A DNA stretch of 64,000 bases from Streptococcus himalayensis (lineage in GTDB: Bacteria; Bacillota; Bacilli; Lactobacillales; Streptococcaceae), in NCBI RefSeq assembly GCF_001708305.1, contig NZ_CP016953.1, forward strand, positions 75,001 to 139,000, written 5' to 3'. The number at the start of each line of letters is the position of its first letter. The first letter of the stretch is position 1. Positions 3,297-19,176 of this stretch are shown here, piece after piece. Under the pieces are notes generated by a model. That model ran no database searches. It was given only the letters and a program-made list of their open reading frames with translations, and had not been told where the DNA came from. The position numbers and the translations under genes were made by a program.

Positions 3297-3767
3297 CTAC
3301 TCCCAATCCGATAGGTACTCTCGTAACTCTCGTAGGAGTTCCCGGCGCCCCTTGAAGCGTTCATCGGCTATGAGGCGATCGTATCTTTCTTGTGAGGCTT
3401 GACTGAGGCTGGAGCGATACCGAGTCAACTCTGCCTGTAATAGATACTGATCATCTGGTAGTAACCCTCCTTGGGTTAACTTATGTCCTATCTCGCTTAC
3501 TTCTTCATAGGCCATTCTGTTTAATTTTCGTTTTTGGCTTTCTTGTTTGCGGATAACATCTAGCACGTGGTTGCGAAACTTTGTTTTATAGTAGACATAC
3601 AATTTCTCTTCCCCTAACTCAGGATGTTGCTTGAGTAACTGATACAACACGAGCATCCCTTCTTGTTCCCAATCTTCTTGTTCCCACAACTGGACATAGT
3701 AGTCTTTTCGGCATCGTAGGACTATTCCTCTGACTTTGGCATACATAGCTTCAAACTGATCCATCAT
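3297..3767 (-). CDS. comX: Competence sigma factor ComX (SigX)
   Basis: Alternative sigma factor that directs RNA polymerase to the late competence (CIN-box) genes needed for DNA uptake and recombination. The protein of about 156 aa shows the family hallmarks: FEAMYAKVRGIV at the N-terminus, QLWEQEDWEQEGM in region 2, KFRNHVLDVIRKQESQKR in the middle, and RFKGRRELLRELREYLSDW at the end. I start at the ATG at 3767; a GTG four codons upstream overlaps the Shine-Dalgarno GAAAGTGAG. Streptococcal comX genes typically sit next to rRNA operons, as here. Upstream is an extended -10 (TGCTATACT, hexamer at 3799-3804) without a good -35, which fits a promoter needing an activator. I could not identify a convincing ComE or ComR site. 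Confidence 0.9.
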   Translation of the reverse strand: MMDQFEAMYAKVRGIVLRCRKDYYVQLWEQEDWEQEGMLVLYQLLKQHPELGEEKLYVYYKTKFRNHVLDVIRKQESQKRKLNRMAYEEVSEIGHKLTQGGLLPDDQYLLQAELTRYRSSLSQASQERYDRLIADERFKGRRELLRELREYLSDWE

Positions 3768-3919
3768 TTTCTGTCTCACTTTCTTATTCTGTGAAATCAG
3801 TATAGCATCCTATGGAGCGCTTTAGGGGTTTTGCCCTCTTCTGTTCCTTAAACTCCCCCTAAGGACATGCACGTAGACAAAGTTATACACTTCAGGCACA
3901 CTTTGGGGCAGTTCAGAAA

Positions 3920-4078
3920 ACTAGTCTAATACGCATGTAAGTTCAAAAATAGCTGTCTTATCTATGATTATTTATTTGTTCTATAAAATCGAGCAAGCTA
4001 AGTGAGGTAAATAAGATACATTTCCAGTAAATAAGATGAATAGACATAGAACACAGGTAGTTTACATCCAAACAATCG
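3920..4078 (-). repeat. AT-rich interspersed repeat, family 2, partial copy
   Basis: Read on the minus strand, this stretch shares blocks with the repeats at 20208, 26405 and 31470: ATCTTATTTAC, TTTTATAG, AAATAAATA and GCTATTTTTGAA. It ends in ACATGCGTATTAG, a variant of the shared ACATGAGTATT end. It fills the gap between comX and the IS66 remnant. The left end seen in other copies is missing or degraded. Confidence 0.5.
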
Positions 4079-4082
4079 TAAC

Positions 4083-4347
4083 CGCTCCATAACGAGGTAT
4101 ATTGAAAAAGTTCCAAAGTCTTGCTTGACTCTGGAACTTCTTCAATTTGCAGTTGTTCTGAATTTGTTCCGCCCGCGGTAAATAAGTCTCTAGAACCTCC
4201 TTTTTTGCGAGTGACTCCTCGTTTGGAAGATGTTCCAGAAGATAGGTCATATATTTCTCCGAATCAAGGCTGTGTCGCTTGGCTGTTTCCAATAAACTCA
4301 GAATGATGGCTGTTGATTTAGCTCCATCAAATTTCTGAGAGAACAGT
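4083..4347 (-). pseudogene. IS66-family transposase (TnpC) C-terminal remnant with one IS end
   Basis: The minus strand translates to a C-terminal IS66 transposase segment (FSQKFDGAKSTAIILSLLE, then TAKRHSLDSEKYMTYLLEHL, then LPNEESLAKKEVLETYLP). A stop codon sits immediately upstream of the homologous stretch at about 4347. The extreme C-terminus appears frameshifted. The other side ends at 4083 with GTAACCGCTCCATAACGAGG, the same terminal sequence seen on the composite element at 20388. The 5' part of the element is missing, so this is a deletion scar. Its broken edge lies only about 50 bp from the tracrRNA-like sequence. Confidence 0.8.
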
Positions 4348-4396
4348 TAGGGAGATTGTTTCGTATTTGAAGCTCTCTGCAAGATGGTGCCCAATG

Positions 4397-4488
4397 TGGA
4401 ACTATCCAAAACAGCACAGCGTGTTAAAATAAGGCTTTGTCCGTATTCACCTTCACAAGAAGGGTGCACCGATTCGGTGCTTTTTTTG
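4397..4488 (+). ncRNA. tracrRNA of a type II-A (Cas9) CRISPR system, orphan
   Basis: The sequence follows the Streptococcus pyogenes short tracrRNA element by element. Anti-repeat: GTGGAACTATCC, then AAAACAGCACAG, then CGTGTTAAAATAAGG. Nexus: AAGGCTTTGTCCGT (S. pyogenes has AAGGCTAGTCCGT). Next comes a stem-loop CACCTTCACAAGAAGGGTG. Last is the terminator hairpin GCACCGATTCGGTGC followed by seven T. The length of about 92 nt compares with 89 nt in S. pyogenes. tracrRNA base-pairs with the crRNA repeat, allows RNase III processing and loads Cas9. No cas gene or repeat array is in the window. The 5' side, where a long-form promoter would lie, is cut by an IS66 remnant, so expression is uncertain. 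Confidence 0.9.
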
Positions 4489-4923
4489 TTTCCGCTTTCA
4501 TTGTAGCATATTTGCATTAGCTTGTGTAGTCTTTTTTGTAAAATTTAGATATTGTTGAGGTATGAAAATTCTATTTATACTCTAGTAGTTATATCATGTG
4601 CATACTTTCTAACAAATTGCCAGAGTCTTTTCTACAGTCACAACCACCCATGAAAACAGAGGGACTTATACACGGCTATAAGCCGTTCATCTACAGCATC
4701 TTCTAAAGATGCTTGCTAAACCTTGTTCCGGTTATGCGTCTATCACTTGACTATTGCTAGTCTCAACGAGCTTTTATCTTGCTCTAAATTCTCCACCAAA
4801 ATGCTCCCTCCTATTCTCTTACACTCGAGAATCAAAAGCAATGTCATCTTTCTCTTACTCACAAATAAAGAACAATTTTCTCATGTTTATCTTCGAGAAA
4901 AATTGGCTCGAAGCCATAATACA
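4489..4923. other. Intergenic stretch without recognisable genes
   Basis: I see no coding region with a ribosome site, no CRISPR repeats and no cas remnant here on either strand. Short inverted repeats occur (for example ACACGGCTATAAGCCGT and GCATCTTCTAAAGATGC near 4670-4710), but I cannot assign them. Confidence 0.5.
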
Positions 4924-4970
4924 AAAATAGACTGGGCAAGCCATTTATAGTAGCTGACCCAGTCTATTTT
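4924..4970. terminator. Bidirectional terminator after yidD
   Basis: A 13-bp perfect stem (AAAATAGACTGGG / CCCAGTCTATTTT) flanked by A and T runs. It lies 10 bp past the yidD stop and should end the rdgB-yidD operon. Confidence 0.8.
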
Positions 4971-4980
4971 GTGCCGCATT

Positions 4981-5220
4981 TCATTTCCGATTCGCTTTTA
5001 AACTAAAGTGGTCTGGCACAGGATCCTCGCCAGTTTCGCTCCATGGATGACAGCGACTAATCCGTGCCAAGCCCATAAGAAGGCCTTTTAGCCCATGCTT
5101 TTCAATCGCTTGAATCATATAGGTCGAACAGGTCGGTTGATAGCGGCATGATGGAGGAAACAAGGGGGAGATAAAAGCTTGGTAAAAGCGCACAGGGGCA
5201 ATCAATAGTCTCCGAATCAT
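4981..5220 (-). CDS. yidD: Membrane protein insertion efficiency factor YidD
   Basis: A 79-aa protein with the YidD signature: an amphipathic N-terminus ([19 protein letters not shown]), the conserved cysteine motif [16 protein letters not shown], and [11 protein letters not shown]. YidD binds the inner face of the membrane and assists YidC/Sec insertion of membrane proteins. Its ATG overlaps the rluB stop by 4 bp (ATGA), so translation is probably coupled. It is the last gene of the operon. Confidence 0.93.
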
Positions 5221-16329: not shown

Positions 16330-17744
16330 GGCTCTTTGTCAACTGTAGTGGGTAGATGAAAAGCTAACACCTAGAGAGGACCAAATTGGTCTTCTCTCGT
16401 TTTATGTTTAAAGCAATGAAAATCCGCTTTTTAAAGTTTTCAAAGTTTCGAAAGCCAAAGGCATTGCGTTTGATGACTTTGATGAGATTATTCGTCGCCT
16501 CAAGTTTGGCATTTGAGTAAGGCAATTCCATGGCGTTGAGAATCTTATCCTTGTCCTTCAAAAAGGTATTAAATACGGTCTGGAAAATCGGGTCGACAGT
16601 CTGCCGAGTGTCTTGGATAAGTCCAAAAAACTGGTCAGCTTGCTTCTCCTGGAAGTGAAAAAGCAGTAGTTGATAGAGCTCGTAGTGTTCTCTCAGTTCT
16701 TGAGAATAGCCGAGCAGTTTAGCGACAATCTCCTTATTGGTCAAATGCATCCGAAAGGTCGGGCGGTAAAACCGCTTGTCACTGAGTTTTCGACTGTCCT
16801 GTTGTATCAATTTCCAGTAGCGTTTGAGCGTCTTGTATTCATGCGATTTGCGGTCAAAAGCATTCATGATTTGGGTACGGACACGGTTCATAGCACGGCT
16901 GAGATGTTGCACAACGTGGAAACGATCAAGCACGATTTTAGCATGAGGAAAAAGTTGTTTGGCTAGTTGATAGTAAGGGCTAAACATGTCCATAGTGATG
17001 AATTTAACGCGGTTTCTGACCTGTCTAGGGTATCTCAGAAAGTGATTTCGGATGGTTGCTTGCGTTCTTCCATCAAGGATAGCGATGACATTTAGGGAGT
17101 TGAAATCTTGAGCGATAAAGCTCATTTTCCCTTTCTTGAAGGCATACTCATCCCAAGACATGACTTCTGGAAGCTTAGACCACTCCGTTTCAAACTTAAA
17201 CTCGTTGAGTTTTCGAATAACTGTAGATGTAGAAATGGAAAGTCTGTGTGCGATATGTGTCATTGCTTGCTTTTCGATGAGTAATTGTGCGATTTTCTGG
17301 TTGACAGCGACAGAGATTTGATGGTTTTTCTTAACAATAGGAGTTTCAGCGACCGCTATTTTCCCACATTCCTTGCATTTGAAACGACGCTTTCGAAGGC
17401 GGATAAGTAGCGGGTAGCCAGCAGTTTCTAAGTAGGGGATTTTAGAGGCTTTCTGGAAGTCGTACTTAGCCATTTGTCCCTTGCAGGAAGGGCATTTAGG
17501 GGCTGTGTAATCCAAGTGACCGTGGAGTTCTAAGTGAGTTCCCATGTCGCATTCATTAGTGATCGTGATATTTTTGTCTTTCATTTTGAGAAAATTTGTG
17601 ATAAGATTTAGTTGTTCCATATGAGTCTTTCTAAATGATATTTTTGTCGCTTTTCATTATAGGTCATATGGGACTTTTTTTCTACACTGAAAAAGGCTCC
17701 ATAATCTCCACAGTGGATTTACCCACTACAGATATTATAGAGCC
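16330..17744 (-). mobile_element. ISL3-family insertion sequence, copy 1
   Basis: A 1415-bp element with imperfect terminal inverted repeats: GGCTCTTTGTCAACTGTAGT on the left, and GGCTCTATAATATCTGTAGT as the complement of the right end. An 8-bp direct repeat TATTTTGA flanks it (16322-16329 and 17745-17752), so both ends are original and the insertion is undisturbed. ISL3 elements make 8-bp duplications. Confidence 0.95.
16364..17620 (-). CDS. ISL3-family transposase, copy 1
   Basis: A 418-aa DDE transposase that appears full length and intact. The N-terminal zinc-ribbon cysteines are CPSCKGQM and CKECGK. Next come a helix-turn-helix region (MTHIAHRLSISTSTVIRKLNEF) and the catalytic domain with MSWDEYAFKKG, ITMDMFSPYYQLAK, VLDRFHVVQHLSRA and the C-terminal SNAKLEATNNLIKVIKRNAFGF. 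It differs from copy 2 mainly after residue 240. Confidence 0.95.
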   Translation of the reverse strand: MEQLNLITNFLKMKDKNITITNECDMGTHLELHGHLDYTAPKCPSCKGQMAKYDFQKASKIPYLETAGYPLLIRLRKRRFKCKECGKIAVAETPIVKKNHQISVAVNQKIAQLLIEKQAMTHIAHRLSISTSTVIRKLNEFKFETEWSKLPEVMSWDEYAFKKGKMSFIAQDFNSLNVIAILDGRTQATIRNHFLRYPRQVRNRVKFITMDMFSPYYQLAKQLFPHAKIVLDRFHVVQHLSRAMNRVRTQIMNAFDRKSHEYKTLKRYWKLIQQDSRKLSDKRFYRPTFRMHLTNKEIVAKLLGYSQELREHYELYQLLLFHFQEKQADQFFGLIQDTRQTVDPIFQTVFNTFLKDKDKILNAMELPYSNAKLEATNNLIKVIKRNAFGFRNFENFKKRIFIALNIKREKTNLVLSRC

Positions 17745-17762: not shown

Positions 17763-19176
17763 GGCTCTTTGTCAACTGTAGTGGGTAGATGTCAGCTAAC
17801 ATCTAGAGAGGACCAACTTGGTCTTCTCTTTTTTGATGTTTAAGGCAATCAAAATCCGCTTTTTGAAGTTTTCAAAGTTCCTGAAACCAAAGGCATTTCG
17901 TTTAATGACTTTGATAAGATTATTGGTAGCTTCCAATTTAGCGTTGGAATAAGGCAATTCCAAAGCGTTTAAAACCTTGTCCTTATCCTTTAGAAAGGTC
18001 TTAAATACCGTCTGGAAAATAGGGTTAACAGTGGCTCTTTCTTGCTCAATTAGGTCAAAGAAATGCTCTGAGTTCCTCTCTTGGAAATGGAATAAAAGAA
18101 GTTGATAGAGTTCATAATGTTGTCGTAACTCATCTGAGTAGGATAGGATCTTGTCTAAGATTTCCTTATTGGTCAAATGCATGCGAAATGTAGGGCGATA
18201 AAATCGTTTATCACTGAGTTTACGGCTATCTTGTTGTACCAGTTTCCAGTAGCGTTTTAAGACACGGTATTCCTGGGATTTTCTATCGAATTGATTCATG
18301 ATTTGTATGCGGACACGGTTCATAGCACGGCTGAGATGTTGCACAACGTGGAAACGATCAAGCACGATTTTAGCATGAGGAAAAAGTTGTTTGGCTAGTT
18401 GATAGTAAGGGCTAAACATGTCCATAGTGATGAATTTAACGCGGTTTCTGACCTGTCTAGGGTATCTCAGAAAGTGATTTCGGATGGTTGCTTGCGTTCT
18501 TCCATCAAGGATAGCGATGATGTTATTTGTGTCAAAATCTTGAGCGATAAAGCTCATTTTCCCTTTCTTGAAGGCATACTCATCCCAGGACATGACTTCT
18601 GGAAGCTTATCCCAATCCGTTTCAAATTTAAACTCATTGAGTTTTCGAATAACTGTAGATGTAGAAATGGAGAGTCTGTGTGCGATATGTGTCATTGCTT
18701 GCTTTTCGATGAGTAATTGTGCGATTTTCTGGTTGACAGCGACAGATATTTGATGGTTCTTCTTAACAATAGGAGTTTCAGCGACCGCCATTTTCCCACA
18801 TTCCTTGCACTTGAAACGACGCTTTCGAAGGCGGATAAGTAGTGGGTAGCCAGCAGTTTCTAAGTAGGGGATTTTAGAGGCTTTCTGGAAGTCATACTTA
18901 GCCATTTGTCCCTTGCAGGAAGGGCATTTAGGGGCTGTGTAATCCAAGTGACCGTGGAGTTCTAAGTGAGTTCCCATGTCGCATTCATTAGTGATCGTGA
19001 TATTTTTGTCTTTCATTTTGAGAAAATTTGTGATAAGATTTAGTTGTTCCATATGAGTCTTTCTAAATGATGGTTTTATCGCTTTTCATTATAGGTCATA
19101 TGGGACTTTTTTTCTACACTGAAAAAGGCTCCATAATCTCTACAGTGGATTTACCCACTACAGATATTATAGAGCC
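17763..19176 (-). mobile_element. ISL3-family insertion sequence, copy 2
   Basis: A 1414-bp element in the same orientation as copy 1 and only 18 bp away. It has the same terminal repeats and its own 8-bp duplication GCTTTTTT (17755-17762 and 19177-19184). The separate duplications show two independent insertions and rule out a tandem amplification. Confidence 0.95.
17796..19052 (-). CDS. ISL3-family transposase, copy 2
   Basis: A 418-aa apparently intact transposase with the same zinc ribbon, HTH and DDE motifs as copy 1. The first ~148 residues differ from copy 1 at a single position and residues ~185-240 are identical, but the C-terminal 170 residues differ at many positions (for example QERNSEHFFDLIEQERATVN against QEKQADQFFGLIQDTRQTVD). 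The match is a patchwork and not uniform. Confidence 0.95.
   Translation of the reverse strand: MEQLNLITNFLKMKDKNITITNECDMGTHLELHGHLDYTAPKCPSCKGQMAKYDFQKASKIPYLETAGYPLLIRLRKRRFKCKECGKMAVAETPIVKKNHQISVAVNQKIAQLLIEKQAMTHIAHRLSISTSTVIRKLNEFKFETDWDKLPEVMSWDEYAFKKGKMSFIAQDFDTNNIIAILDGRTQATIRNHFLRYPRQVRNRVKFITMDMFSPYYQLAKQLFPHAKIVLDRFHVVQHLSRAMNRVRIQIMNQFDRKSQEYRVLKRYWKLVQQDSRKLSDKRFYRPTFRMHLTNKEILDKILSYSDELRQHYELYQLLLFHFQERNSEHFFDLIEQERATVNPIFQTVFKTFLKDKDKVLNALELPYSNAKLEATNNLIKVIKRNAFGFRNFENFKKRILIALNIKKEKTKLVLSRC

Follow-up and report, generated by a model that had tools for sequence, protein, structure and literature searches.

What is left of a CRISPR-Cas system when only its tracrRNA can be found? 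The window, a stretch of 64,000 nucleotides of the Streptococcus himalayensis chromosome (contig NZ_CP016953.1, positions 75,001 to 139,000), carries an RNA of this kind, and a preliminary description made from the letters alone had offered two readings: the scar of a lost CRISPR-Cas locus, or a tracrRNA that serves, or interferes with, a Cas9 from another part of the genome. Choosing between them depends on what the RNA is, whether any partner exists in the genome, whether the RNA can be expressed and how it came to stand where it does.

The identity of the RNA is clear. An Rfam cmscan search of the whole window placed a tracrRNA of family RF02348 on the plus strand at 85.1 bits, above the gathering score of 70, spanning the full model (1-92) with an E-value of 2.8e-12; in the complete one-contig genome it is the only RF02348 match at E 0.001. 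The anti-repeat, nexus, middle stem-loop, terminal hairpin and T7 named in the preliminary description are all found in the sequence (Table 1), in the order of parts of the Rfam type II-A tracrRNA. A chance resemblance or another RNA family has next to no probability and is already refuted by the RF02348 match, for which both the full-model E-value and the close alignment to Cas9-adjacent tracrRNAs speak; the stand-alone fold is unremarkable (z -1.28), but a tracrRNA pairs with its crRNA, hence this score says little.

Table 1. Features of the window discussed in the text, in window coordinates.
Feature	Position	Strand	Basis
Sigma factor gene	3297..3779	-	weak sigma-70 profile matches
IS66-family tnpC remnant, inner piece missing near 4345	4077..4402	-	identity to three copies; PF13817
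Orphan type II-A tracrRNA body (anti-repeat, nexus, middle stem, terminal hairpin, T7)	4394..4487	+	RF02348, 85.1 bits; alignment to intact G177 tracrRNA
Anti-repeat region GGAACTATCCAAAACAGCACAGCGTGTTAAAAT	4398..4430	+	sequence; alignment
Motif GGAACTATCCAAAACAGCACAG	4398-4419	+	sequence
Motif GTTAAAATAAGG	4423-4434	+	sequence
Nexus GGCTTTGTCC	4433..4442	+	sequence; Rfam match
Middle stem-loop CCTTC-ACAA-GAAGG (stem CCTTC/GAAGG)	4450..4463	+	alignment; fold
Terminal hairpin plus T7 (intrinsic terminator)	4466..4487	+	sequence; fold
Terminal hairpin proper GCACCGATTCGGTGC	4466-4480	+	sequence
T7 run	4481-4487	+	sequence
IS200-type element remnant, two ends kept, most of tnpA between them gone	4623..4930		identity to element ends
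yidD	4981..5220	-	PF01809, 101.5 bits

No partner for this RNA was detected. Within the 64-kb window, tblastn with one query each (E 1e-3) found no Cas9, Cas1, Cas2 or Csn2, and no repeat lay within six substitutions of the common streptococcal repeat, as the preliminary description had stated. In the whole source genome the Cas9 profile TIGR01865 had no match, a full-length streptococcal Cas9 query had none at E 10 in a search run without a positive control, Cas1 was not found by a search that was positive in 9 of 14 control genomes, and one typed 22-mer CRISPR repeat had no match at up to three mismatches. A repeat of the type found in G177, a Streptococcus genome with an intact type II-A locus, was absent from 40-85 kb of the window's chromosome at up to 12 substitutions, and these two repeat searches gave no same-genome CRISPR repeat complementary to the anti-repeat. 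The Cas9 profile works in the genus, being over cut-off in 111 of 284 Streptococcus genomes; because it also gives sub-cut-off matches in control genomes (4 of 14, none over cut-off), only over-cut-off matches were counted. The PF16595 profile had no match anywhere, controls included, and was not used as evidence. At the sensitivity of the searches used, a Cas9 elsewhere in the source genome is excluded, and the proposal of such a partner was rejected, as it is absent by profile and by full-length query from a single contig of 2,275,471 bases that is 99.97% complete.

This genome is not alone in carrying a tracrRNA without Cas9. RF02348 matched in 118 of the 284 Streptococcus genomes and was over cut-off in 93, in a search run with stricter filters by which weak matches are lost; 24 of these 93 have no Cas9 over cut-off. 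Since 14 of the 24 are single-contig assemblies, assembly gaps cannot explain all of them, and orphan tracrRNAs are common in Streptococcus. A weak tracrRNA match was seen in 25 genomes, 14 of them without a Cas9 over cut-off. The 32 orphans analysed comprise all 24 (the window included), three genomes with a shorter Cas9 elsewhere (G024, G210 and G182, frames of 1136-1142 aa) and five of the 14 weak-match genomes (G001, G282, G235, G216 and G094); G028 and G162 were counted as lacking Cas9, with sub-cut-off TIGR01865 matches of 21.4 and 18.3 bits. They were compared with 58 intact loci and with three contig-split loci (G022, G045 and G154), in which tracrRNA and Cas9 lie on different contigs and which were moved out of the orphans. 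G216 was not anchored, leaving 31 anchored orphans, and neither it nor G001 has a promoter score, leaving 30 that are scorable.

The orphans share the loss of the tracrRNA promoter. A positional profile of 41 bases, covering -45 to -5 from GGAAC, with the intact loci each left out in turn, scored at least 5.9 in 56 of the 58 intact loci and at least 19.3 in the three contig-split loci; all 30 scorable orphans scored -10.2 or less, and the native pattern was present in none. The window scored -30.2 (mean of other window positions -41, SD 11.5), and no promoter of its own stands at the usual distance. Because the promoter sits between cas9 and the tracrRNA, chance deletions of cas9 should sometimes spare it, an expectation that the scorable orphans, none of which retains it, do not follow. 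Two loci with an intact Cas9, L139 (G136) and L118 (G269), also score low and lack the usual promoter pattern. Judged from its sequence, transcription of the window tracrRNA from its own promoter is unlikely and, since no partner was found and the native promoter is missing, we think that the RNA is inert. In this it is unlike the type II-A tracrRNAs whose order of parts it shares, having neither the native promoter pattern nor, as far as was found, a cas9 or matching repeat in its genome.

It could still be argued that the RNA has been kept at work, serving or blocking a Cas9 that arrives on mobile elements, with its transcription starting at a promoter in some unusual position. The body is well preserved, orphans G214 and G070 have promoter scores above the 95th percentile of background, and divergence is lower in the orphan tracrRNAs than in the flanks downstream of them, with a median ratio of 0.525 over 15 pairs in 8 groups; the ratio in intact loci was 0.27 over 34 pairs. 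In these comparisons pairs are non-independent, flanks partly coding and some flank alignments gap-rich. The orphan value falls between neutral and constrained and, given those pairs and flanks, weighs little either way. Against such a role stand the missing native pattern in every scorable orphan, the decay of orphan G094 (48.6 bits, 3′ half degraded) and the sequence upstream of the window tracrRNA, which is the remnant of an IS66 tnpC gene on the opposite strand. No native-type promoter is present to express the RNA against an incoming Cas9. We regard a working RNA as very unlikely. A tracrRNA transcript with a regulatory use does exist in the tracr-L of S. pyogenes, which, according to the accessible part of PMC11417352, is driven by a promoter of its own, carries a guide sequence and acts through Cas9; for the window tracrRNA, by contrast, neither a Cas9 nor a native promoter was found.

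The IS66 remnant occupies the place of the native promoter and defines the 5′ breakpoint. Its identity to three IS66 copies is 79-81% over 4077-4346; a second stretch, which starts at 4334/4337 and has 74-77% identity, runs to 4402, and against two of the copies to 4414 and 4415. Its match to PF13817 (DDE_Tnp_IS66_C) reaches 27 bits, below the cut-off of 30. In all three copies compared, the homology extends to GGAAC (4398-4402), the start of the anti-repeat. At the joint, two copies read CCCAATTTGGAAC and the third CCCAATTTGGAGC, and most intact tracrRNAs have TTGGAAC or TTGGAAT at the anti-repeat start; comparison of the two sets gives a joint at the shared GGAAC, or at TTGGAAC with one change. 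At the 5′ end of the tracrRNA the window reads CCCAATGTGGAAC and then runs into IS66 instead of a repeat: the break lies at the anti-repeat start, the promoter is lost and the body is kept.

Other features around the tracrRNA are of mixed origin. The retained ends of the IS200-type remnant are 74-77% and 81-89% identical to those of an element that other genomes carry in multiple copies and that encodes a Y1_Tnp protein (132.5 bits). The sigma factor gene, which we take to be ComX/SigX, gave sigma-70 profile matches below the curated cut-offs (best E 4.6e-5 and 7.2e-5) and no Pfam match at 0.001, with E 0.064 in another search. An rRNA operon lies on the sigma-factor side of the tracrRNA and an rluB-like gene on the yidD side. 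Farther along the window, two copies of the Streptococcus RNA Srn266 stand about 1.4 kb apart (17634-17744 and 19066-19176). A chromosomal site shared with intact loci through yidD was also considered and was not seen: among the matches listed, in 24 other genomes compared, yidD did not lie near the tracrRNA and was at least 93.9 kb from it on the same contig, in linear distance. By blastn, the window flanks matched none of the 58 intact loci.

In contrast to the window, 22 of the 32 orphans have a collinear blastn match (E 1e-10) of each flank to one intact locus of another species, in some cases short or kilobases away from the junction, and the junctions of many orphans point to a common route of loss. 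At least one upstream repeat in the orientation of the anti-repeat was present in 45 of 46 intact loci examined, and two or more in 42, the nearest lying 6.1-9.1 kb from the anti-repeat, so that array repeats and anti-repeat form direct repeats around the cas operon. TTTT, the end of the repeat, directly precedes the anti-repeat in 16 of 31 anchored orphans and in none of the 58 intact loci (Fisher P 1.7e-9, uncorrected for kinship), and in six of the 31 (G155, G161, G036, G190, G280 and G053) a repeat end lies exactly one 30-nt spacer upstream. Junction endpoints were compared with a longer query in 11 orphans, and in eight of them (G024, G181, G182, G092, G094, G202, G162 and G163) the upstream-flank homology runs through the terminal repeat of the intact partner and breaks off at position 28, the point at which repeat and anti-repeat diverge. 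In G280 it extends across another spacer to the equivalent point, in G190 it ends in the spacer-repeat stretch before the hybrid (from 66 nt up to 105 down in the partner), and in G001 it stops before the repeat, leaving a crossover unsupported there. Some junction sign is present in 24 of the 32 orphans; none of the three signs was seen in G207, G210, G028, G282, G235, G001, G216 and the window (8 of 32).

From the direct-repeat geometry, the homology endpoints at position 28 and the retained spacers, we infer that excision of the cas operon by crossover between repeat and anti-repeat is the favoured origin of many orphans in the genus. An array repeat would recombine homologously with the anti-repeat, which has the same orientation and lies across the cas operon from it; this would delete cas9-cas1-cas2-csn2 together with the tracrRNA promoter and leave the tracrRNA body preceded by a hybrid of repeat and anti-repeat. 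Judged by site and junction, an estimated ten or more independent excision events would have taken place. Related processes are on record: in the accessible part of PMC6990116, removal of the cas operon is an escape route and repeat-repeat recombination removes spacers, and, in that of PMC8841824, S. pneumoniae can harbour a remnant system. Recombination between repeat and anti-repeat is not described in the accessible parts of PMC8616872, PMC8841824, PMC4466440, PMC11417352 and PMC6990116, and no description of it was found in the open-access papers searched, outside of which lie most subscription papers and all preprints; the phrase "orphan tracrRNA" was not found there either, a similar one occurring only in the context of TnpB. 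The novelty of the mechanism is accordingly provisional.

Several arrays hold unusual inserts, which we note separately. Six orphan loci (L065, L067, L068, L064, L060 and L038) and one intact array (L094, in G143) carry the same insert of 411-414 bp with a 100-aa frame, in the position of an overlong spacer with a CRISPR repeat on each side; the L065 insert protein had no Pfam or NCBIfam match at E 0.1. In L058 (G157) an insert of 1112 bp with a 309-aa frame, whose profile matches are weak and sub-cut-off, separates a complete repeat from the hybrid repeat-tracrRNA, and L037 (G095) has 727 bp of it at 89%. Oversized inter-repeat gaps also occur in the intact arrays L105 (608 bp, with a frame that resembles nucleoside diphosphate kinase by eye), L048 (534 bp), L143 (485 bp), L141 (204 and 2134 bp) and L138 (91 bp).

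For the origin of the window tracrRNA itself, the closest of the five tracrRNAs aligned with it is that of the intact type II-A locus of G177, whose Cas9 frame is intact at 1412 aa. The two have an identical nexus and a similar longer middle stem, a form nearer to G177 and S. acidominimus than to G002, G183 or G116 by alignment and fold, and their similarity continues for about 24 nt beyond the T-run; the window differs in lacking everything upstream of GGAAC and in the different surroundings of its tracrRNA. The G177 locus (L129) has an array of 18 repeats beyond the tracrRNA, in the opposite orientation, and a single repeat at the csn2 end. Genes that flank it occur on the window's chromosome at 42-45 kb and at 64-65 kb, with the tracrRNA at 79.4 kb and the order changed, which suggests one rearranged region and is not proof that the locus stood there. 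The S. acidominimus CCUG 27296 orphan (L076, taken to be G001) is a related tracrRNA, also without Cas9, that differs from the window in scoring 66.4 bits, below the Rfam cut-off, and in the collinearity of its flanks with the G177 locus; it adjoins a gene that was read by eye as folD-like. Isolated parts of CRISPR systems are familiar from orphan arrays such as CRISPR2 of Enterococcus faecalis, where, according to the accessible parts of PMC5491264 and PMC4580645, the array remains without cas genes, whereas in the window it is the tracrRNA that remains.

A phage or plasmid origin was also considered and rejected. An exact 22-base core of the tracrRNA occurs in one viral contig, beside a Cas9 N-terminus (by eye) on the other strand, and a distant search gave 24 phage records (20 Salmonella, 4 Listeria) and 3 plasmid records, with 76-82% identity among the matches listed. 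Salmonella phage seszw records (e.g. MZ375333.1) contain an unannotated 62-base match to the tracrRNA body, which at a guess is possibly an engineered guide-RNA scaffold.

The most serious alternative is that a tracrRNA fragment was moved between insertion elements and that no CRISPR-Cas locus ever stood at this site. The IS66 remnant on one side and the IS200-type remnant on the other would fit such a transfer, as would the distance of yidD from the tracrRNA in the other genomes and the failure of the flanks to match any intact locus fetched. On the other hand, the genes from either side of the G177 locus are no more than about 40 kb from the window tracrRNA in a 2.28-Mb genome, and the roughly 24 nt of G177-like 3′ flank adjoin it still, both of which fit a local rearrangement. 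A moved fragment therefore has a real chance of being correct, though one well short of even, and it too would make the window tracrRNA a relic.

We conclude that the window feature is very probably a relic, left by a type II-A CRISPR-Cas9 locus that has lost its cas operon, array and tracrRNA promoter. The scar proposed in the preliminary description gains from the absent native promoter, the IS66 fragment fused to the 5′ end and the lack of cas9, cas1 and repeat, and further from the same promoterless form in other streptococci. Among the points against a relic, the body shows no clear decay, and the flanks, unmatched among the 58 intact loci, do not reveal an ancestral site. A working locus of the G177 kind would once have been deleted, leaving the tracrRNA body, to whose 5′ end a fragment of IS66 tnpC would have been joined at the shared GGAAC. 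Whether a crossover between repeat and anti-repeat was the first step, before the joining of IS66, is a question to which we lean slightly towards no. The 5′ end continues neither into a repeat end (GTTTTGG) nor into a repeat-spacer unit; the main array of G177 lies beyond the tracrRNA in the opposite orientation, so that crossover with it would leave the cas genes in place; and G001, whose flanks resemble those of G177, has no crossover sign. The IS66 sequence may have replaced a repeat hybrid later, or a deletion may have joined IS66 and anti-repeat directly.

Loss of CRISPR-Cas in bacteria is mostly inferred from absence. An orphan tracrRNA, by comparison, is a readable junction that marks the loss, so that events can be counted and placed. 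A single relic is of modest interest, and the route by which such loci would be lost again and again is of greater interest. In practice, a tracrRNA match should not be read as a sign that a Cas9 system is at work, as the 24 of 93 matching genomes without a Cas9 over cut-off make plain. The geometry of repeat and anti-repeat also leads to the prediction that type II-A systems with this gene order are lost as a unit more easily than systems whose operon has no anti-repeat at its far end. A bolder and, in our judgment, unlikely extension is that many streptococcal type II-A loci carry a built-in deletion pair and that the scar, still homologous to the ends of the operon, is a possible landing site for regain by natural transformation, with the window as an example modified by IS66; if this were true, loss of the type II-A immune system could be reversible within a species.
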